64,000 bases of DNA from Thermopolyspora flexuosa. Its GTDB lineage: Bacteria > Actinomycetota > Actinomycetes > Streptosporangiales > Streptosporangiaceae. The notes beneath the pieces were generated by a model, which worked only from the letters and a program-made list of their open reading frames with translations, ran no database searches and was not told the DNA's origin. The first letter of the stretch is position 1. Every line of letters begins with the position of its first letter. The translations under genes and the position numbers were made by a program. The stretch is from assembly GCF_006716785.1 (NCBI RefSeq), contig NZ_VFPQ01000001.1:3472001-3536000 (forward strand), given 5' to 3'. Positions 47,214-61,125 of the stretch are shown piece by piece.

Positions 47214-49551
<2,338 letters not shown>

Positions 49552-51630
49552 ATGGACGGTGTCCTCCTCGAGGGTGATCCGGTCCGGGTCGGCCCCTACC
49601 GCATCGTGCGCCGCCTGGGCGAGGGCGGCATGGGGGTCGTGTACCTGGCCGAGGCGCCGTCGGGGGAGCAGGTCGCGGTCAAGCTGATCCACCGGCATCT
49701 CGCCGCCGACTCGGAGTTCCGGCGGCGGTTCCGGCGCGAGGTGGAGACGGCGCGGCGGGTCGCCCGGTTCTCCACCGCGGCGGTGCTCGACGCGGACGTG
49801 GACGGGCCCACCGCCTACCTCGTCACCGAGTACGTGCCGGGGCCGACGCTGCTGGAGGAGGTGCGCAGGCGGGGGCCGCTGCGCGGCTCCGCCCTGGAAG
49901 GGCTCGCGGTGAGCACGGCGACGGCGCTGCGCGCGATCCACGCCGCCGGGGTGGTGCACCGGGACCTCAAGCCGTCGAACGTGCTGCTGTCGCCGCTCGG
50001 CCCGAAGGTGATCGACTTCGGTCTGGCCCGGCTCGCGGACGGGTCCACCCAGTCGATGCTCGCGCTCGGCACCCCGGCGTACATGTCGCCGGAGCAGGCG
50101 CGGCGGGAGAAGGTGACGACCGCGTCCGACATCTTCTCCTGGGGCGGGGTGATGGTGTTCGCCGCGACCGGCTCCCCGCCGTTCGGCAGCGGCCCCGGGC
50201 AGGACGTGCTCTACCGGGTGGTGCACGACGAGCCGCAGCTGCCGCGGATCGACGGCGTGCTGGGCGAGCTGGTGGCACGGGCGCTGGCGAAGGACCCGGC
50301 CGCCCGCCCCACGGCCGAGCAGCTCGTCGACGCGCTGGCCGCCGGGCACACCCGGAACCTGACCGCTCCCCTGCCGTCCCCGCGTCCGGACGCGACGCCG
50401 TCCACCGGGCCGTCGACCGTGCCGTCGACGGTGCCGTCGGGCGCGGCGCGCAGGCGGTGGCCGGTGCGTGCCGCGGCGGCGGGCCTGGTGGTGGCCTGTC
50501 TCGTCGCGACCGGGGCACTGCTCGCCCTGTCGGGCACGGACGACGACGGCGCCCCGGCCATGCGGCGGCAGGGCGTCGCGGGCGGGAACCCGCTGCGGGA
50601 GGGCGCGCGGCTGTTCGCGCCGCCGGACGGCGACGCGGCGCGGCAGGCGCAGGTGTGGGAGGCGCAGGGCCGGGCCGCGGACGCCGCGCTGATGCGGGCG
50701 CTCGCCCGGGTGCCGCAGGCGATCCGGCTGGCCGGCGGCGGCCCCGAGCAGGTGCGGCGCACCGTGCAGGACACGATGGCACAGGCCGCGCGGCAGGACG
50801 CGGTACCGGTGTTCGTCACCGACTTCGTGCCGCAGCGCGACTGCCACAACGGCGGCGCGGCGAGCCCGGAGGCGTACCGGGCGTGGATCGACGCCGTGGC
50901 CCAGGGCATCGGGGACGGCCGGGCGGTGGTCGCGCTGGAGCCGGCCGGGCTGTCCCGGGCGCCGGGCACCCCCGAGTGCCCCGCGGGCGGGCCGCAGGCC
51001 CTGCGGCAGCGGTACGCCGACCTCGGCTACGCGGTGACCCGCCTGGGCGGGCTGCCCCGCACTGCCGTGTACCTCGACGGCGGGCTCGCCGACTGGCCCT
51101 CGCTGGAGGCGTCGGCGGAACGGCTCGCCGCCGCGGGCGTGGCGGGCGCCGACGGCTTCTACCTCAACGTGAACGGCCACCGCCCGACCCGGGACTCCGT
51201 GGCCTGGGGCGTACGCCTGGCCAAGTGCGTGCACCTGCGCCTGTCGGCGGGCGCGACCGCCTGCCCCGAGGACGCGCTGCGCCACGTGCCCGACGACACG
51301 GCCGAGCTGCCCCGCTTCGTGGTCGACACGAGCCGGAACGGCACCGGCGAGTGGCGGCCACCGCCGGGGCGGTTCGCCGACCCGCAGGAGTGGTGCAACC
51401 CGCCCGGCCGCGGCGCGGGCGCCCGGCCCACCACCACCGACACCGGCCACGCCCTGGTCGACGCCCTGCTCTGGCTCAACGACCCCGGCCGCTCCACGAT
51501 GCGCTGCACCCGCGGTACGGCGGGCCCGGAGGACCCGGTGTACGGGGTGGTCACCCCGGACGCGGGCCGGTGGTGGCCCGAGCTCGCCCTGGAGCGGGCG
51601 CGCAACGCCGTACCCCCGCTCACCGAGTGA
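49552..51630 (+). CDS. Membrane Ser/Thr kinase with GH6 cellulase-like outer domain
   Basis: The product has 692 residues. Residues 10-265 are a complete Hanks-type kinase: GEGGMG (23-28), Lys44, HRDLKPSN (136-143), DFG (155-157) and GTPAYMSPEQ. After a proline/threonine linker comes one membrane segment (about 303-328). Residues 345-685 match glycoside hydrolase family 6: VPQRDC holds Asp430 (the acid), YLDGG Asp509, then VDTSRNGTGEW, EWCNPPGR and RWWPELALERARNA. Two catalytic aspartates are replaced: the LEPD aspartate is Ala465 and the GEADG-type base is Thr649. The outer domain therefore probably binds cello-oligosaccharides without cutting them. TACGAT nine bases before the ATG suggests a leaderless message. 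Confidence 0.9.
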   Translation: MDGVLLEGDPVRVGPYRIVRRLGEGGMGVVYLAEAPSGEQVAVKLIHRHLAADSEFRRRFRREVETARRVARFSTAAVLDADVDGPTAYLVTEYVPGPTLLEEVRRRGPLRGSALEGLAVSTATALRAIHAAGVVHRDLKPSNVLLSPLGPKVIDFGLARLADGSTQSMLALGTPAYMSPEQARREKVTTASDIFSWGGVMVFAATGSPPFGSGPGQDVLYRVVHDEPQLPRIDGVLGELVARALAKDPAARPTAEQLVDALAAGHTRNLTAPLPSPRPDATPSTGPSTVPSTVPSGAARRRWPVRAAAAGLVVACLVATGALLALSGTDDDGAPAMRRQGVAGGNPLREGARLFAPPDGDAARQAQVWEAQGRAADAALMRALARVPQAIRLAGGGPEQVRRTVQDTMAQAARQDAVPVFVTDFVPQRDCHNGGAASPEAYRAWIDAVAQGIGDGRAVVALEPAGLSRAPGTPECPAGGPQALRQRYADLGYAVTRLGGLPRTAVYLDGGLADWPSLEASAERLAAAGVAGADGFYLNVNGHRPTRDSVAWGVRLAKCVHLRLSAGATACPEDALRHVPDDTAELPRFVVDTSRNGTGEWRPPPGRFADPQEWCNPPGRGAGARPTTTDTGHALVDALLWLNDPGRSTMRCTRGTAGPEDPVYGVVTPDAGRWWPELALERARNAVPPLTE

Positions 51631-51669: not shown

Positions 51670-54600
51670 TCACAACCGGCTGAACAGGAGGATCACCGCG
51701 GTCCCGAGCAGGAAGATGCCGAACACGACGAGCGCCGGCACCTTGAACTCGTGGAACCGGTTCGGCGCGAGGCGGATGGGGTGCGGGGAACCAGCCGAAC
51801 GACCGGCTCCCGCCACCGGCTCGGCCACCTCGCGGCGCGGGCGGGGCACCGTCGCCGACAGCTCGGTGGGACCGTAGTGCGAGAGCCAGATCTCGGCACC
51901 GCCGTGGGCGGCCACCGCCTCCAGCAGCGCCACCCGCATCCCGTGCGTGGTGTCCTTCCGGCCGGCCAGCTCCACCGCCTTGCGCAGCGACCTCTCGTCA
52001 CCGTCCGCGAACGCGCAGGCCACCAGGTCCCGCAGGGCTCGGTCGAGCTCGTCGGGGGTGAGCACCGTCTCCAGCCGCTCGCGGAAGAACCCGTTGCCGA
52101 TGAGGATGTCCCGCAGCTGGGCCCGCGCCTTGCCGTCCCCCTCGACCACCCGCGCAAGGCCCTCGACGCCACGCCGTACGTCCTCCGGGATCTCCGCCGT
52201 ACGCAGCTTCTGCACCAGGAAGGGGACGTTCTCGTGCGGCTGCCGCTCCGGCACGGGCGGCAGCGGCCGGGTCTCCGCCGCGCCCTCACCGCCGGACGCC
52301 TCCCCCTCAGGCCCGACAGGCGGAAGTGGTGCCGTCTCCGCCGTGCTCCCCTCGGCATCCCCCGCCTCGCCCGGCGAGGACTCCGCCACCGGAGTCGAAA
52401 CGGCCTCCTCCGCCACCTCGTCCGACGGCGACGGTACGGCACCGGCCTCGCTCGCCCCGGCGCCTTCGGCCGAATCCTCCACCGCCGACGGCGAATCAGC
52501 AGGCTCTTCGGCCTCAGGCGACGGCGATCCCGCAGAACCGGACGCACTCACCCCGGCGCCTGCGGGCGAACCCTCACCCCGAGGCGGCGAGTCCGTGCGC
52601 TCTCCGGCCCCGGACGACGGCGACTCCTCGGGGCCTGACGCGGCCGTCCCGGAATCCGCCGGGCCACTCGCCACCACACGCTCCGCCCCATGAGACGGGC
52701 CGGTCCCCGCGCCACCCGTCTCGGGTCCGGGCAACGGTGACTCCGCCGAACGAGCCGTGCTCACCGCTCCGGCATCCGGTTCCTCGATCTGGAGGACGTC
52801 CCCCACCACAGGAACCGGGCCGGGCCGCTCGACGGTCCTCGGCGACGGCACGTCCGCCTCGGCACCCGCGGTCGAATCCGGCACCGCTGATGGCGAACCG
52901 ACGGGTTTTCCGGCCATAGGCGACGGCGACGCCTCGGAACCCGCCGTACCGGCACCGGCATCCGCCGGACCACTCGCCGCCACGCTCTCCGAGCCGTGAG
53001 CCGAACCGGCCCCGGCACCACTCGTCTCGGCGTCGAACGACTGCGGGTCGGCGGCCCCAGCGGAACCAGCGGCTGCCTCCGACGGCCCGCTCGGCGGCCC
53101 TTCAGAACCCGGCCCCAACGGGTCGACGGCTCGCGGCCACTGCGGCGCCGCGGCCCCGGCCGCGCTCACGGCGGCACCCGTCACGCCACTTGACGGCGGC
53201 CGCCCCATGTCCTGAGCCGAAGCGGCCACCGCGCCACTTGCCTCAGTGCCGGACGATGGCGAGCCCAAGGAGCCGAGCGCAGTCACCTCGGTACGCGCCG
53301 AGCCACCGTACGGCGGATCTCCCACCTCGGCGGTGGCATCGGTCCGCTCCTCGGGTGACGGCGAGACCGCCGCGCCGGCCGACCCCCGCCCGCTACCTGC
53401 CACCTCGCTCAGCGGCGGATTCGCGAACGCTTGTGCCGGCCGCGGGCCGCTCGACTCGGTCGGCGACACCGGGAAAGCGACCCCGCTTTCTCCGGATCCC
53501 GGTGCCCCACTCACCGGCGAGCCCACCGCCTCAGGCGTCGCACCGTCCCGCCCCGCGATCTCAGGCGACGGCGGTACACCGGGACCTGCCACCGCACTCG
53601 CCGGAGCATGCTCCATCCGTGGATGCGGACGAGCCCACCCCGCGGCCACGGGCGACGACACCTCGGAACCTGCCGCACCGGTTCCGGCACCCACGGTCCC
53701 GGTCGGCGACGGATCCTTCGGCCCTTCCGGCAGACCGGTCTCGGCGCCGCCCGCCTGGGCCTCGGACGGCGGCATCGCGGAACCGGCGAAACCCATCCCG
53801 GCGCCCGCCACCGGCTCCCCCACCGCGGGGGACGTACCGGGGCGCTCAACGGCGTCGGGCGAGGGGGCAGGACCGGCCGCGCTCGCCGCCACCCCTGACG
53901 GCCGATCCTCCCGATCCCGGGAAGGACCGATGCCCGCGTCCCTCCGCTCAGCCGGCGGCGGTGGCATCGCGGAACCGGCAAACCGCACTCCGGCATCGAT
54001 CGGCGCACCCCCTGCAGCCCGAGGCGAACCGGCATGCCCGACGGTGCCGGGCGACGGCGAGGGCGCAAGCCCGCCCGCCGCCGCAGGGGTGCCTGCGGTT
54101 TGCGGCGATTCCGGATTCTCCTTCCGCGGGCCGCCCGCCGCACCACTCGCCTGGGCGTCCCGCGCCGCGGACGCGTCCGCGGATCCCGGCGCGTACGGGG
54201 TCGGCGCGAACGGGTACGGCTGCCGCCGGTGGGCGGGGACCCGCCGCTCCACGGTGGGGTCGCCGTCCCCCACGGTGGTGGCCTGGGGGGCGGGACCGGC
54301 CACCCGCACGCCCTTGACCTCGGCGTACTTGAGCACGATCGCGATGCGCTCGGCCTCGCCGTGCCGTTCGTGGCGGATGCCGATCCGCCGCAGCAGGCGG
54401 CGCACGCCCGCGGCCGAGCCGCCGCGGTAGGTCTCGAGGAGCGTGTCGGCGGCGTCCAGGTAGCGGTCACGGCCGGGCGGTGGCGCGGCGAGGTCGAGGC
54501 GGAAGTGGCCGGGTTGCAGGCCGCTGTGCCGCCAGTCGTCGAGGAAGACGAACCGCGGCAGGCCGGGCCGGGTGTCGTCGTTCTCCCTGGTGGAGAACGT

Positions 54601-55185
54601 CCAGTACCTCCCGGTGCCGTCACCGACGATCTCGCCGAGCAGATCGATCAGGCCCCACAGCAGGCGCCCGGGTTCCACGCCGGGCGGCAGCCGGCAGGAG
54701 AAGCCCTGGTCCGGGGCGCGCAGCACCTCGGCCGCGAGACGGCGCAGCGCGTCGTGCGGCCCTCGCCGGACCTCGTCGGTGCGCTCGTCCCGCAGGATCG
54801 GGGAGAGCCCGCCGATCCGGGTGGCGTCGATCGGCTCGTCCCCCTGCCCCGGCGCGGGGATCCAGTGGTGCCAGGTGTCCACCGTGGCGAGCACGGATCG
54901 CGGCTCGAACACCGGCCCCTCGCCGATGTAGGCGTAGGTGACGGTGCCCGCTTCGGGGTCCGGGGCGGGTGCGCGGTGCAGGGCGGCCACCCGGTCGTCC
55001 CACACCAGGCGGCACACGCTCGGCCCGGGTTCCACCCCCGGGATGCGGCGCGGCTCGGCCAGCGGCATGAGCCGCCGCTCCCACCGCTCCCGCTCGGCCC
55101 GGTCCACGAGCGAGGAACGGCGCAGCCCCGGCATCGCCGCCCCCTGCGCCCGGCCGAACACCAGCCAGTCGACGCGGCCGTTCAT
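51670..55185 (-). CDS. Large tail-anchored protein with disordered middle
   Basis: A 1171-residue protein I do not recognise. Residues 1-300 are a folded domain (RVDWLVFGRAQGAAMPGLRR, YAYIGEGPVFEPRSVLATVD, RYWTFSTRENDD). Residues 300-965 are rich in Ala, Gly, Ser, Pro and Glu with imperfect repeats of about 50 residues (for example SVAASGPADAGAGTAGSE versus RVVASGPADSGTAASGPE), so disordered. Residues 970-1100 are a helical domain (FLVQKLRTAEIPEDVRRGVE). A single membrane segment (about 1147-1169) ends the chain. It converges with the kinase gene, 39 bp apart. Its N-terminus may be related to GTPase-associated conflict proteins, but this is only a guess. Confidence 0.8.
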   Translation of the reverse strand: MNGRVDWLVFGRAQGAAMPGLRRSSLVDRAERERWERRLMPLAEPRRIPGVEPGPSVCRLVWDDRVAALHRAPAPDPEAGTVTYAYIGEGPVFEPRSVLATVDTWHHWIPAPGQGDEPIDATRIGGLSPILRDERTDEVRRGPHDALRRLAAEVLRAPDQGFSCRLPPGVEPGRLLWGLIDLLGEIVGDGTGRYWTFSTRENDDTRPGLPRFVFLDDWRHSGLQPGHFRLDLAAPPPGRDRYLDAADTLLETYRGGSAAGVRRLLRRIGIRHERHGEAERIAIVLKYAEVKGVRVAGPAPQATTVGDGDPTVERRVPAHRRQPYPFAPTPYAPGSADASAARDAQASGAAGGPRKENPESPQTAGTPAAAGGLAPSPSPGTVGHAGSPRAAGGAPIDAGVRFAGSAMPPPPAERRDAGIGPSRDREDRPSGVAASAAGPAPSPDAVERPGTSPAVGEPVAGAGMGFAGSAMPPSEAQAGGAETGLPEGPKDPSPTGTVGAGTGAAGSEVSSPVAAGWARPHPRMEHAPASAVAGPGVPPSPEIAGRDGATPEAVGSPVSGAPGSGESGVAFPVSPTESSGPRPAQAFANPPLSEVAGSGRGSAGAAVSPSPEERTDATAEVGDPPYGGSARTEVTALGSLGSPSSGTEASGAVAASAQDMGRPPSSGVTGAAVSAAGAAAPQWPRAVDPLGPGSEGPPSGPSEAAAGSAGAADPQSFDAETSGAGAGSAHGSESVAASGPADAGAGTAGSEASPSPMAGKPVGSPSAVPDSTAGAEADVPSPRTVERPGPVPVVGDVLQIEEPDAGAVSTARSAESPLPGPETGGAGTGPSHGAERVVASGPADSGTAASGPEESPSSGAGERTDSPPRGEGSPAGAGVSASGSAGSPSPEAEEPADSPSAVEDSAEGAGASEAGAVPSPSDEVAEEAVSTPVAESSPGEAGDAEGSTAETAPLPPVGPEGEASGGEGAAETRPLPPVPERQPHENVPFLVQKLRTAEIPEDVRRGVEGLARVVEGDGKARAQLRDILIGNGFFRERLETVLTPDELDRALRDLVACAFADGDERSLRKAVELAGRKDTTHGMRVALLEAVAAHGGAEIWLSHYGPTELSATVPRPRREVAEPVAGAGRSAGSPHPIRLAPNRFHEFKVPALVVFGIFLLGTAVILLFSRL

Positions 55186-56030: not shown

Positions 56031-56723
56031 CTAGACCGCGAGCAGCCGGTGGACCTCCTCGCCGCGCAGCTCGTCGGCCGAGCCGGAGTGGACCACGTGG
56101 CCCGCGTCGAGAATGAGGAAGCGATCGGCCATGCGCAGGGCCAGGTCCACGTACTGCTCCACCAGCAGCACCGCCAGGCCAGAGGCGTGCAGGCGTTCGA
56201 TCGCTTCCTCGATTTCGAGGATAATCGACGGCTGGATGCCCTCGGTCGGCTCGTCGAGGATGAGCAGCTTGGGCCGGGTGACCAGGGCGCGGGCGATCGC
56301 GAGCTGCTGCTGCTGGCCGCCGGAGAGGAACCCGGCGCGGCGCTTGAGCAGCGGCTTGAGCCGGGGGAAGATCTCCAGCGCCTCGTCGATCGCGCTCTCG
56401 TCCCGGTGCGGCGAGGCCTCGAGCGTCACCAGCAGGTTGCCGAGCACGCTGAGCTGCGGGAAGGTCTCGTGGCCCTGGGGCACGTAGCCCATGCCGAGCC
56501 GTACCCGCTCGTGCGGCTTGAGCTTGGTGACGTCGCGCCCCTCGAAGGTGACCGTGCCCGCGGTGGCGGGGATCACCCCCATGATCGTGTTCAGCAGCGT
56601 GGTCTTGCCGACGCCGTTCCGGCCCATGACGCACACGAGCTGCCCGGGCTCGACGTCGAGCGAGACCCCGAACAGCACCCGCGCGCGGCCGTACCCCGAC
56701 TCAAGACCGCGGACCGACAGCAC
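56031..56723 (-). CDS. urtE: Urea ABC transporter ATPase UrtE
   Basis: A 230-residue ATPase of the LivF/UrtE type: Walker A GRNGVGKT, YVPQGHETFPQLSV, signature LSGGQQQQ, LLILDEPTEGIQP and LVEQYVDLAL. The GTG start directly follows the urtD stop, with no gap. It ends the urtABCDE operon, which faces urease and imports urea. Confidence 0.94.
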   Translation of the reverse strand: MLSVRGLESGYGRARVLFGVSLDVEPGQLVCVMGRNGVGKTTLLNTIMGVIPATAGTVTFEGRDVTKLKPHERVRLGMGYVPQGHETFPQLSVLGNLLVTLEASPHRDESAIDEALEIFPRLKPLLKRRAGFLSGGQQQQLAIARALVTRPKLLILDEPTEGIQPSIILEIEEAIERLHASGLAVLLVEQYVDLALRMADRFLILDAGHVVHSGSADELRGEEVHRLLAV

Positions 56724-57509
56724 CTATCCCACCTCCCCGGGCACCGGCTGGGCGGCCCGGCCGAGATAGACCTCGCGCACCTTCGGGTCGTTCCGCACCT
56801 GGTCCACCGAGCCTTCCATCAGCACCTTGCCCTCGTGCAACACCGTGACGACCGAGGCGTGACGGCGCAGGAAATCCATGTCGTGCTCGATCACGATCAC
56901 CGTGTGCTCCTCGGCGATCCGGGTGAGCAGCTCTCCGGTGCGGGCACGCTCCTCCTTCGACATGCCGGCCACCGGCTCGTCGAGCAGCAGCAGCCGCGGT
57001 TCCTGCGCGATCAACATGCCGATCTCGAGCCATTGGCGCTGGCCGTGAGAGAGCGTGCCGGCGGCGCTGTCGGCGAGATCGGTGAGTCCTGTGACCTCCA
57101 GTGCCCGCGCCACCGCGTCCGAAACACCCTTTCTGCGCCGCAGCAGCGACCACAGCGGCCTGCGGAACGACGCGGCGAGGTCGAGGTTCTCCACGACGGT
57201 GAGCTCCTCGAACACCACCGACGTCTGGAAGGTACGGCCCACGCCCATGCGGACGATCTCGTGTTCCCTGCGGCCGACCAGCTCGGCCCCGGCGAACCGC
57301 ACCGACCCGGTGGCGGGCCGGGTGAGGCCGGTGATCACGTCGACCAGGGTGGTCTTCCCCGCGCCGTTCGGGCCGATCAGGAAGCGCAGCTCGCCCTTTG
57401 CGACGGTGAGGTCGACGCCGTCGAGCGCGCGGAAGCCGTCGAAGACCACCGACAGGTCGCGGATCTCCAGCAGCGGCTCCGCGGCCGGGCCGCCTCCGTT
57501 GACGCTCAT
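56724..57509 (-). CDS. urtD: Urea ABC transporter ATPase UrtD
   Basis: A 261-residue ATPase with Walker A GPNGAGKT, GRTFQTSVVFEELTV, signature LSHGQRQW (as in UrtD rather than the usual LSGGQ), Walker B LLLLDEPVAGM and IEHDMDFLRRHA. Those variants are typical of UrtD. ATG overlaps the urtC stop by four bases. Confidence 0.95.
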   Translation of the reverse strand: MSVNGGGPAAEPLLEIRDLSVVFDGFRALDGVDLTVAKGELRFLIGPNGAGKTTLVDVITGLTRPATGSVRFAGAELVGRREHEIVRMGVGRTFQTSVVFEELTVVENLDLAASFRRPLWSLLRRRKGVSDAVARALEVTGLTDLADSAAGTLSHGQRQWLEIGMLIAQEPRLLLLDEPVAGMSKEERARTGELLTRIAEEHTVIVIEHDMDFLRRHASVVTVLHEGKVLMEGSVDQVRNDPKVREVYLGRAAQPVPGEVG

Positions 57510-58657
57510 GCCGCCTCCTTCGCCTCACGCGCCGCCCATCCCGGCCGGGCCCGCCGCCACCGGGCGACCGCGTCCCGGGCCGAGGCGAGCAGCCCGGCCA
57601 CGCCGCCGGGGGCGAGGGTCATGACGAGGATGAACAGCGCGCCCTGCAGGTAGAGCCAGCCGCCGGCGAACTCCTCGCTGAAGGCGGTCTTGGCGTAGTT
57701 CATCAGCACCGCGCCGAGCACCGCGCCGCCGAGCGCGTACCGGCCGCCGACCGCGACCATGACGACGAACTCGAGCGACGGCACCACGCCGAGCAGCGCG
57801 GGCGAGATGATGCCGACCACCGGGACGAACAGCGCGCCCGCGATGCCCGCCATGCCCGCCGCGACCGCGAAGGTGATCGTCTTGACCACGGCCGGGTCGT
57901 AGCCGAGGAACCGCACCCGGTCCTCGGCGTCCCGCACCGCCACCAGCAGCCTGCCGAAGCGGCTGCGGGCGAGCTGCCAGGCGAACAGGAACAGCACCCC
58001 GAGCGTGATCGCGACCACGAAGTAGAGCCCGCGCTGGGTGCCGTCGGCGGCGAGGTCCTGGCCGAACAGCTCGAAGAAGTTCGTCAGGCCGTTGGTGCCG
58101 CCGGTGAGCCCCTGCTGGCCGACGAGCAGGATCACCAGGGCGGCGGCGAGCGCCTGGGTGAGGATCGCGAAGTACGCGCCGCGCACCCGGCGGCGGAACA
58201 CGAGCAGGCCGAGCACGGTGGCGATCGCGACCGGCAGCACCACGGCCGCGGCGAGCGCGAAGGCCGGGCTGCGGAACGGCGCCCACAGCGCGGGCAGCGT
58301 CTCGACCCCGCTCCACACCATGAAGTCGGGCAGCTCGCCTCCGGCGTCGTTGAGCTTGAGGTACATGCCCATCGAGTAGCCGCCGATGCCGAAGAACACC
58401 CCCTGCCCGAGGGTGAGCATGCCGCCCCGGCCCCAGGCGAGGCCGATGCCGAGGGCGACGATCGCGTAGCACAGGTACTTGGCGAGCAGGTTCAGCCGGA
58501 ACGGCTCGAGCGCGACCGGCGCCACGGCGAGCAGGAGCAGCGCGACCACGACGAACAGCCCGGGCCCGGACCGCGCCGCCTCGGTGACGCGGGCGAGCGC
58601 GGCGGGCCGCCGCCGCTGCACGGGCCGCTCCGGAACGGTCTTCAACGTGACGGTCAT
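57506..58657 (-). CDS. urtC: Urea ABC transporter permease UrtC
   Basis: A 383-residue branched-chain-amino-acid-type permease with about ten membrane segments. Markers: GRGGMLTLGQGVFFGIGGYSMG, GQQGLTGGTNGLTNF and AVRDAEDRVRFLGYD. ATG 58657 overlaps the urtB stop by four bases; the longer upstream frame lies inside urtB. It pairs with UrtB. Confidence 0.95.
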   Translation of the reverse strand: MTVTLKTVPERPVQRRRPAALARVTEAARSGPGLFVVVALLLLAVAPVALEPFRLNLLAKYLCYAIVALGIGLAWGRGGMLTLGQGVFFGIGGYSMGMYLKLNDAGGELPDFMVWSGVETLPALWAPFRSPAFALAAAVVLPVAIATVLGLLVFRRRVRGAYFAILTQALAAALVILLVGQQGLTGGTNGLTNFFELFGQDLAADGTQRGLYFVVAITLGVLFLFAWQLARSRFGRLLVAVRDAEDRVRFLGYDPAVVKTITFAVAAGMAGIAGALFVPVVGIISPALLGVVPSLEFVVMVAVGGRYALGGAVLGAVLMNYAKTAFSEEFAGGWLYLQGALFILVMTLAPGGVAGLLASARDAVARWRRARPGWAAREAKEAA

Positions 58658-59532
58658 GTGAGCGCCCTCGATCGGAGAACGAACAGGCCCTGCGGCCGGA
58701 TCTGCAGGAACGCGATGATCACCGCGAAGACGATCACCTTCGCGAGGCTCGCGTTCGTCCAGAACTCGGCGTAGGAGTTGAGCAGCCCGAGCCCGAACGC
58801 GGCGAGTACGGCGCCGCCGAGCCGGCCGAGGCCCCCGCACACGACCACGAGGAACGCGTCCACGATGTAGTACGTGCCGAGGGTCGGGCCGACGGGCCCG
58901 ATCAGGGTGAGCGCGACGCCGGCGATGCCGGCGAGGCCCGAGCCGATGAAGAACGTGAGCTGGTCCACCCGGCCGGTGTTGATGCCGCCGATCGCGGCGA
59001 GCTGCCGGTTCTGCATCACCGCCTGCATCCGGCGGCCCTGGGAGGACCGGGCGAGGTAGGCCCAGATCGCCAGCACGCAGCCGACGGCGAGGGCGAGGAT
59101 GAACAGCCGCGCGTACGGGATCTGCGTGCCGAACAGCGGCAGCCCGCCGCTGAGCCAGGTCGGGGCCACCACCTGGACGTTCGGCGCGCCGAACAGGTCC
59201 CGCGCGAGCTGCTGCAGCACCAGGCTCACGCCCCAGGTGAGCAGCAGCGTGTCGAGCGGGCGGCCGTAGAAGCGGCGGATCGCCAGCCGTTCCAGCAGCC
59301 AGCCCATCGCGCCCGCGACGATGAAGGCGACCGGCAGCGCCACCGGCACCGCCGCGGTGCCGACGACGGCCTGCAGCAGGTAGGCGGTGTAGGCCCCGGC
59401 CATGATGAACTCGCCGTGGGCCATGTTGATCACGCCCATCTGGCCGAACGTGAACGTGAGGCCGAGCGCGATGAGCAGCAGCACGGCCGCGATCGACAGG
59501 CCGACGGGCAACTGGTTGAGAAAGGCCTGCAC
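58654..59532 (-). CDS. urtB: Urea ABC transporter permease UrtB
   Basis: A 292-residue permease. Markers: LGLTFTFGQMGVINMAHGEF, RRFYGRPLDTLLLTWGVSL, MQNRQLAAIGGINTGRVD and VFAVIIAFLQIRPQGLF. The GTG at 59530-59532 has AAGGAG seven bases upstream; an upstream ATG would add 31 unconserved residues. It follows urtA after a 138-bp gap. Confidence 0.95.
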   Translation of the reverse strand: MQAFLNQLPVGLSIAAVLLLIALGLTFTFGQMGVINMAHGEFIMAGAYTAYLLQAVVGTAAVPVALPVAFIVAGAMGWLLERLAIRRFYGRPLDTLLLTWGVSLVLQQLARDLFGAPNVQVVAPTWLSGGLPLFGTQIPYARLFILALAVGCVLAIWAYLARSSQGRRMQAVMQNRQLAAIGGINTGRVDQLTFFIGSGLAGIAGVALTLIGPVGPTLGTYYIVDAFLVVVCGGLGRLGGAVLAAFGLGLLNSYAEFWTNASLAKVIVFAVIIAFLQIRPQGLFVLRSRALT

Positions 59533-59670
59533 TCCGGCTCCTTGGATGGTCGACGTCCGGAAGGTCGGTCCTGTGGGGCCGCCCGGCGGCCGCGGACCCG
59601 GGTACGGCCGGCCGGGGGAGCGCATCCCGGCCGGCCGCCGCGTGCCCCGCGGCCCGGGCGTGCCCTGCGA

Positions 59671-60918
59671 TCAGCTCAGGCCGCCCGCCCAGGAGTAGGT
59701 CTTCAGGTACGGGTCGGGCTTGATCGGCTCGCCGGAGTTCCACACCTCCCGGATCAGGCCGTCCTTCTCGATGACGCCGATGCGCGCCGTCTTGTACAGG
59801 TGCTGGTTCTCACCGTCGATCGTGACCGTGCCCTCGGGGCGCTTCAGGGAGATGCCGGCCGCGGCCTTCTTGACCGCCTCCACCTCGGTGGTGCCGGCCT
59901 TCTTGACCGCCTCGGCCCACAGGTAGACCGCGTTGTAGCCGGCCTCCATCGGGTCGGAGGTCACCCGGTCCTCGCCGTACCGGGCCTTGAACGCCTTGAC
60001 GAAGGCCTCGTTCTCCGGCAGGTCGGTGGTCTGGTAGTAGTTCCACGCCACCAGGTGGCCGGCGATGTTGTCGACGCCGATGCCCTTGACCTCCTCCTCG
60101 GCGATGCTCACCGACATCACCGGCGTGTCCTCGGCGGTCACCCCGGCGCTCTTGAGCTGCTTGAAGAACGCCACGTTGCTGTCGCCGTTGAGGGTGTTGA
60201 ACACCGCGTCCGGCTTGGCGTCGACGATCTTGTTCACCAGGGTGCTGTACTCGGTGTGGCCGAGCGGCGTGTACTCCTCACCGAGGATCTCCATGCCGTT
60301 CGCCGCCGCGTACGCCTTGATGATCTTGTTGGCGGTGCGGGGGAAGACGTAGTCGCTGCCGACGAGGAAGATCCGCTTCTTCCCCTCCTCCTTCAGGTAG
60401 TCGAGCGCCGGGACGATCTGCTGGTTGGTGGTGGCGCCGGTGTAGAAGATGTACGGCGAGCTCTCCAGGCCCTCGTACTGGACCGGGTACCACAGCAGCG
60501 CCTTGCGCCGTTCGAAGACCGGCAGCATCGCCTTGCGGCTCGCCGAGGTCCAGCCGCCGAACACGGTGGCGACCTTGTCCTGGGTGATGAGCTTGTCGGC
60601 CTTCTCGGCGAACGTCGGCCAGTCCGATGCGCCGTCCTCGACGATCGGCTCGAGCTTCTTGCCGAGCACGCCGCCCGCCGCGTTGATCTCCTCGATGGCG
60701 AGCATCTCCGCGTCCTTCACGGTGACCTCGCTGATCGCCATCGTCCCGCTCAGCGAGTGCAGGATGCCGACCTTGATCGTGTCCCCGGCGCCGGCTCCGC
60801 CGCCGGCGGCCCCACCCTCGGTCTGGCTCGTTCCACTCCCGCACGCGGCGAGACCGACGATCGACGCGACGACGAGCGCGCCGACTCTCAACACGACCGG
60901 CCAGGTTGTTTTCCGCAA
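59671..60918 (-). CDS. urtA: Urea ABC transporter substrate-binding protein UrtA
   Basis: A 415-residue precursor with a lipobox LAAC (Cys26) and a periplasmic binding-protein fold: [70 protein letters not shown] and ADDTPVMS-like strands. This pattern is specific to UrtA. The TTG at 60916-60918 has GGGAGGAC four bases upstream and gives a normal signal peptide. ATG 61026 would add 36 odd residues ahead of it. It diverges from the urease operon. Confidence 0.92.
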
Positions 60919-61125
60919 CTGTCCTCCCTGCGGCTTGGCCCCCGCGCTTGCATCTGCCGACAAGGTGACGTTGCGAAATTTCCCGGCATGTTCCGCAAAG
61001 TTAATTGCTGTTTGCGGGAGATTCACAGGTGACGTTTATTCACCGAAAGCTCGCCCACGAGAGGTGACACATCGCCGAAATGGCGGATTAACGCGGTGGA
61101 AACCGCCGTTCCCTACTGTCCGGCC
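60919..61125. promoter_or_regulatory. Divergent urt/ure promoter region
   Basis: The region holds both the urea-importer and urease promoters. GGTGAC occurs three times, at 60964, 61028 and 61063, each followed within 5 to 11 bp by GAAA. This loosely recalls GlnR sites (GTnAC with GaAAC), though the spacing varies. TACTGT at 61114-61119 lies six bases before the ureA ATG and fits a leaderless message. GCGGT-N4-ACCGC at 61093-61106 is a short inverted repeat just ahead of it. Confidence 0.4.

Follow-up and report, generated by a model that had tools for sequence, protein, structure and literature searches.

Two described receptors come closest to the protein that we report here. CHRK1 of tobacco is likewise a membrane protein in which a kinase is joined to a glycoside-hydrolase fold on the outside, the kinase lying at the opposite end of the chain. 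It is a plant protein and its outer fold is GH18, a family unrelated to GH6. In the accessible text of two papers, that outer domain is termed predicted enzymatic (PMC5485988), and CHRK1 is stated to have no chitinase activity for want of a Glu (PMC10573068). RsgI6 of Clostridium thermocellum carries, according to the available part of its description, an outer GH10 domain that binds cellulose and xylan, has very low activity and acts as the sensor of an anti-sigma factor (PMC4711584). It is therefore, like our candidate, a bacterial membrane sensor with an outer glycoside hydrolase, and is tied to the control of polysaccharide-degrading genes; it differs in combining GH10 outside with an anti-sigma domain inside, where the present protein combines GH6 with a kinase.

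Among proteins that share only one of the two domains, CslZ of Streptomyces has the same GH6 fold and is described, in the text accessible to us, as a membrane-associated lipoprotein and GH6 glucanase (PMC9040799, PMC11022532). It is an active enzyme, unlike the domain considered below, which we infer to be inactive. Cel6 of Mycobacterium tuberculosis (1uoz, 1up0) and Cel6A of Thermobifida fusca (T. fusca; 1tml, 2boe), which were among our best structure and sequence matches, are endoglucanases without a kinase fusion, and Ser/Thr kinases of the PknB and AfsK type have the same class of kinase domain with other outer modules. Given CHRK1 and RsgI6, the principle of a sensor made from a dead or barely active enzyme is already known, and the statement in the initial annotation that no receptor of this design had been described was too strong as a matter of principle. 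The GH6–kinase version is the new element: no GH6 domain on a bacterial Ser/Thr kinase appeared among the literature matches listed (titles and abstract openings, with most subscription journals outside the set), and the accessible text of a paper on Planotetraspora cellulases lists GH6 and does not contain the word kinase (PMC11431748).

Architecture of the gene and its family

The window, by which we mean the whole 64 000-nucleotide stretch of Thermopolyspora flexuosa DNA that was analysed, contains on its forward strand a gene (49552..51630) whose stop codon ends at 51630 and which encodes 692 amino acids counted from 49552: a Ser/Thr kinase, a membrane segment and a GH6-like outer domain. 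The frame, the length, the two domains (Pkinase, 16–260; Glyco_hydro_6, 370–655) and the single hydrophobic segment were all as initially annotated. The kinase domain (residues 16–260; 49597..50331, + strand) matched PF00069 with 145 bits against a curated cut-off of 31.7 (3.7e-42). It was intact, as had been claimed, with the catalytic Lys44, Asp138 of HRD and Asp155 of DFG all present, and profile and residues together place it among the Hanks-type Ser/Thr kinases. It scored under the cut-offs of the PASTA kinase model NF033483 (202.4 of 450 bits) and the AfsK model NF053615 (235.1 of 1300 bits). The outer domain (residues 370–655; 50659..51516, + strand) matched PF01341 with 151 bits against a cut-off of 27 (8.7e-44); Pfam gave no GH18 match anywhere in the protein, and no match to the RsgI N-terminal anti-sigma domain at E up to 1. 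Between the two domains hydropathy picked out one hydrophobic segment, the best 19 residues being 308–326 (50473..50529, + strand), preceded on the kinase side by an Arg-rich stretch. By ordinary topology rules, the kinase would therefore lie inside the cell and the GH6 part outside.

The antisense frame of the gene is likewise open, and it had no Pfam match at E up to 1. With both domains matching at about 1e-42 and the fusion recurring in 68 of 341 genomes, a chance or frame artefact was ruled out. The second genome of the genus holds an orthologue whose outer part is 89% identical.

An AlphaFold2 model of residues 340–692, built from an alignment with five relatives, reached only moderate confidence (pLDDT 69.9, pTM 0.75). 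Its weak stretches were residues 430–434, 470–478, 596–629 and 645–674; because pLDDT fell below 50 at 430–434 and 645–674, the places that we give to Asp430 and Thr649 rest on sequence alignment. The top structural match of the model was M. tuberculosis Cel6 (1uoz; Z 28.1, rmsd 3.1, 285 residues aligned), and the best 50 PDB rows were GH6 structures or GH6-based scaffolds. Prediction of this region against GH6 structures had been proposed beforehand as a check on the GH6-like fold, and a GH6 fold was what it returned. Six Cys of the GH6 part are present in all 84 fusions that we found, as would be expected for a disulphide-bonded outer domain.

These fusions came from a survey of 341 genomes of the source organism's family with residues 340–692 as the query. 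Six candidates were scored per genome, so the fusion counts are lower bounds. Below the two matches of the genus itself, 101 places scored at least 285 bits, followed by a gap down to about 146 bits, and a kinase was looked for in these 101 and in 11 lower-scoring places. It was present in 82 of the 101 and absent from 17, all in genera g56 and g64; the remaining two were cut by contig ends. Including the window and the sister species, the search for this architecture, also proposed at the outset, thus yielded 84 fusions in 68 of the 341 genomes, 14 of which carry two or three copies. The sister-species fusion (L034, QGUZ01000078.1, from the metagenome-assembled genome ZC4RG28) has the same LEPA and PGRST motifs as the window protein at the catalytic positions discussed below; a named member, from Nonomuraea gerenzanensis (L252), has LEPG and AGTSSG and makes Streptosporangiaceae the probable family.

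The kinase motifs were examined in 83 rows, with the sister-genome fusion (G001, L034) left out. Lys, HRD, DFG and the activation-loop Thr were kept in 82 of them; in L089, the exception, the frame covers just part of the kinase. The membrane segment scored at least 1.6 in 80 of 83, and L160 is without linker and membrane segment. An in-frame TGA seen in six loci proved to be the terminal stop, overrun by the match, and not an internal stop.

Five pairs of fusion genes lie a few kilobases apart on the same contig and strand (L087/L104, L099/L105, L095/L110, L088/L108 and L086/L117, at G074:C10, G073:C36, G068:C33, G085:C10 and G083:C19), arranged as tandem duplicates would be.

We found no sign of independent fusions elsewhere: 48 further GH6 loci (three of them under 3.5 kb) gave no kinase match, nor did the 28 loci without an in-frame kinase (one of which, L169, is a fragment). 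In a sample of 394 genomes of the class, with five candidates scored per genome and misses therefore possible, homologues above 200 bits from other families had open frames of 399–526 amino acids, too short for a kinase–GH6 fusion, and no fusion was seen among them. As to a mobile origin, scanning viral_contigs by pattern returned nothing. Twelve plasmid records gave a GH6 match, the best being the fusion in NZ_LT559118.1 (L252); this Nonomuraea gerenzanensis record of 11.85 Mb is listed as a plasmid and, judging from its size, is probably the chromosome.

Catalytic-site residues and their history

Residue equivalences were counted from an alignment to T. fusca Cel6A chain 2boe, a Y73S mutant. 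Ala465 (in LEPA; 50944..50946, + strand) stands at the position of the catalytic acid Asp117 of the LEPD motif, and Thr649 (in PGRST; 51496..51498, + strand) at that of Asp265 of the PGESDG-type motif, so that neither Asp of an active GH6 enzyme is present at these two sites. The initial annotation had likewise placed two lost catalytic Asp at these positions, and the alignment bears this out. Asp430 (in RDC; 50839..50841, + strand), which it had named as the acid, instead aligns with Asp79. Here we take D221 of Trichoderma reesei (T. reesei) GH6 and D120 of CslZ to be the Asp of the EPD motif. In the accessible text of the relevant papers, the catalytic acid of the T. reesei enzyme is D221, T. 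fusca D79 is equivalent to T. reesei D175, a proposed proton acceptor via a water wire (PMC6091422), and the D120A change abolished CslZ activity (PMC9040799). Asp430 thus corresponds to a proton-relay residue and the acid to the residue that is now Ala465, and the earlier label was wrong.

Further replacements relative to Cel6A, absent from the initial annotation, are Asp424 for Tyr73 (50821..50823, + strand), G542 for Asn190, N643 for Lys259 and R647 for Glu263, and a short loop with Ser that is typical of unfused GH6 is also replaced. Arg78 aligns with R429. Asp156 (D509; 51076..51078, + strand), Trp162 (W515) and Trp231 (W614) are kept.

The same picture held across the family when the 84 fusions were set against 31 unfused GH6 domains, a sample of GH6 made up of 17 high-scoring matches, 10 lower-scoring ones and 4 from Streptomyces. 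Three rows were left out of the counts, L169 as a fragment and L139 and L149 because they are cut by contig ends; the GH6 parts of the latter two are likewise degenerate. Asp at the acid position was present in 31/31 unfused domains and in only 2/84 fusions, the other 82 having Asn, Ser, Gly, Ala, Gln, Lys or Glu. The Asp265 counterpart was found in 30/31 (one gap) against 11/84, that of Lys259 in 30/31 (one gap) against 0/84, and Tyr73 in 31/31 against 5/84. Asp79 was kept in 31/31 and 57/84. The short loop with Ser, present in every unfused row, was missing from 79 of the 84 fusions, and the full set Y73/D79/D117/K259/D265 occurred in 30/31 unfused domains and in no fusion.

Loss in the fusions centres on the active site. 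Unfused GH6 has 57 conserved columns, of which 11 are lost in the fusions: 6/10 at columns that we take to be active-site ones, and 5/47 among the other conserved columns (one-sided Fisher p 0.002). The DTxRNG and WCNPP motifs are kept in 83–84 of 84 fusions per column, and residues of the cleft persist as well (W515 in 69/84, W614 and D509 in 84/84, the latter also in 31/31 unfused domains). Two fusions depart from the general trend: L096 keeps the counterparts of both Asp117 and Asp265, and L167 that of Asp117. These are possibly reversions or partly active members.

In a tree of 120 GH6 domains, made by a quick method with one row read in the wrong frame (L185) left out, one branch (SH-aLRT 100) separated all fusions from the unfused domains, which fits a single origin of the fusion; an earlier tree that included the misread row needed two changes. 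The acid position requires at least three changes between Asp and non-Asp on this tree and 17 changes of letter. With few changes of the former kind and many of the latter, an early loss of Asp followed by drift at this position is probable. The GH6 domain is under purifying selection, its dN/dS being 0.13–0.57 in 12 close pairs and 0.37 between the window and its sister. A decaying domain was ruled out by values below 1 in 12/12 pairs. The kinase dN/dS of the pair L085/L089 is unreliable, the kinase of L089 being only partly in frame.

Genomic surroundings and the cellulase link

In the window, the fusion gene lies between leuA (47214–48932, − strand) and an open frame of 1171 amino acids (51670–55185, − strand) without a Pfam or NCBIfam match, whose first 327 residues share 87% identity with the sister locus L034. 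Beyond it are genes for a urea-type ABC transporter, comprising a UrtC model match, a binding protein and two ATPases (56031–61026, − strand). No operon partner was common to the window and the 18 fused loci compared with it (L034, L201–L217).

A neighbourhood of cellulase genes was found in five genomes of genera g44 and g46 (L207, L211, L231, L232 and L233), where GH48, GH9 and GH5 genes come after the fusion on its own strand and a LacI regulator flanks it on the other side. Pfam assigned GH48 and GH9 in L207 and L211, GH5 in L211 and LacI in L207; the rest were assigned by tblastn. These five are the only fusions of the 84 that keep Tyr73, and they form one clade in the tree, so the link counts as one or two events. 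Of the 38 fused loci examined at 13–20 kb, the remaining 33 had no GH48, GH9 or GH5 of these types, and L113, the sister row of the clade (20 kb, L213), is without the link. A fourth g44 genome, G197, has a GH48 match and no fusion match. In two of the five loci, the LacI regulator is accompanied by a further Ser/Thr kinase gene that has no GH6 match (L207:4839–7275 and L211:12212–14774; Pfam on the L207 pair).

At the level of whole genomes, GH48 was present in 58/68 fusion genomes and 141/273 others (odds ratio 5.4, Fisher p 2e-7, kinship not corrected), leaving 10/68 fusion genomes without it. The window's own genome had no GH48, GH9 or PF00150 match; the GH48 model had no control match in that search and matched 199/341 genomes in the family. 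The kinase–GH6 protein is the only GH6 match of this genome, and its sole CBM2 match sits on a GH18 protein (L251:1276–3009). The sister genome, 78% complete, also had no GH48 match. Cellulose is therefore not obviously the food of this organism.

Candidate function and alternatives

An enzyme fold that has lost its cutting residues and is attached to a kinase has probably been turned into a sensor of cellulose or a similar chain. We put at slightly better than even, roughly 0.55, the reading that the protein is a transmembrane receptor kinase that senses beta-1,4-glucan or cello-oligosaccharide through its dead cellulase domain. That receptor role, proposed in the initial annotation, gains from the 84 fusions and from the five beside cellulase genes; the cellulose ligand proposed with it sits less well with a genome without cellulase matches. 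In such a receptor, the outer domain, with its acid and several catalytic-site residues gone and its fold, invariant Cys and cleft aromatics kept, would bind a beta-1,4-glucan chain or cello-oligosaccharide in the cleft, through the remaining aromatics, without cutting it. Binding would bring receptors together or shift a dimer, the kinase domains would cross-phosphorylate their activation loops, and targets in the cytoplasm would then adjust the expression of genes for carbohydrate degradation or uptake. The obvious output in g44 and g46 would be the cellulase genes next to the fusion. No such enzymes were found in the window's genus; there the receptor may respond to cello-oligosaccharides that neighbours release, or to some other beta-1,4-glycan.

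The main rival keeps the dead-enzyme sensor and changes its ligand, which would be one of the cell's own wall or surface glycans (peptidoglycan, a chitin-like chain or a cellulose-like tip glycan), so that the kinase watches the wall and not food. Kinases of the class of PknB, with PASTA domains, sense wall fragments. The GH6 relatives L035–L038 (44–46% identity, alignment A1), which retain LEPD and PGESDG and lack a kinase, sit in the csl cluster. A GlxA homologue adjoins each of them (Pfam on the L035 pair only) and a GT2 synthase homologue adjoins L035, L037 and L038, the L036 locus ending there. CslZ, as far as the accessible text goes, cuts peptidoglycan, cellulose and chitin (PMC9040799, PMC11022532), and the lack of cellulase matches in the window's genome also fits a wall ligand. 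However, CslA and GlxA of the csl cluster gave no match in that genome either (a search without a positive control), the tree places another unfused GH6 closer than that of the csl cluster, and the cellulase neighbours in two genera favour food cellulose. We therefore regard a wall or surface ligand as doubtful.

Two further explanations dispense with the dead-enzyme sensor altogether. The outer domain might still cut, weakly or by another route, as a membrane-held enzyme whose turnover the kinase reports; Asp430 (Asp79) and Asp509 (Asp156) do remain in the window protein, two of the 84 fusions keep the acid, and the GH10 of RsgI6 retains very low activity in the available description (PMC4711584). 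Replacement of the acid in 82/84 fusions, of Lys259 in 84/84 and of Tyr73 in 79/84 argues against this, as does the inactivity of CslZ D120A (PMC9040799, accessible text), and we consider residual cutting unlikely. Alternatively, the GH6 part might have no ligand and serve only as a passive surface or dimerisation module, which would explain why the replacements at the acid position vary by clade, with 17 letter changes, as if no particular residue were needed. It would not explain why W515 is kept in 69/84 fusions and W614 and D509 in all 84, or why the domain is under purifying selection, and we give the passive module slightly less credence still.

Returning to the reading of a cellulose or cello-oligosaccharide receptor, we see an even chance that its full history holds, namely that the entire catalytic domain of a cellulase was taken up on one occasion, lost its catalytic residues and was retained as the receptor, in some lineages beside the GH48, GH9 and GH5 genes that it controls. 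This would be, to our knowledge, the first bacterial transmembrane Ser/Thr kinase that senses cellulose. It is a standing question how aerobic actinomycetes perceive a polymer that is insoluble and unable to enter the cell, and a receptor made from a dead cellulase is a direct candidate answer for cellulose. The family brings its own natural controls for this idea, in the catalytically complete unfused relatives, the single fusion branch and the five cellulase-linked cases, and would be a bacterial instance of the route from enzyme to receptor reported for CHRK1 and RsgI6.
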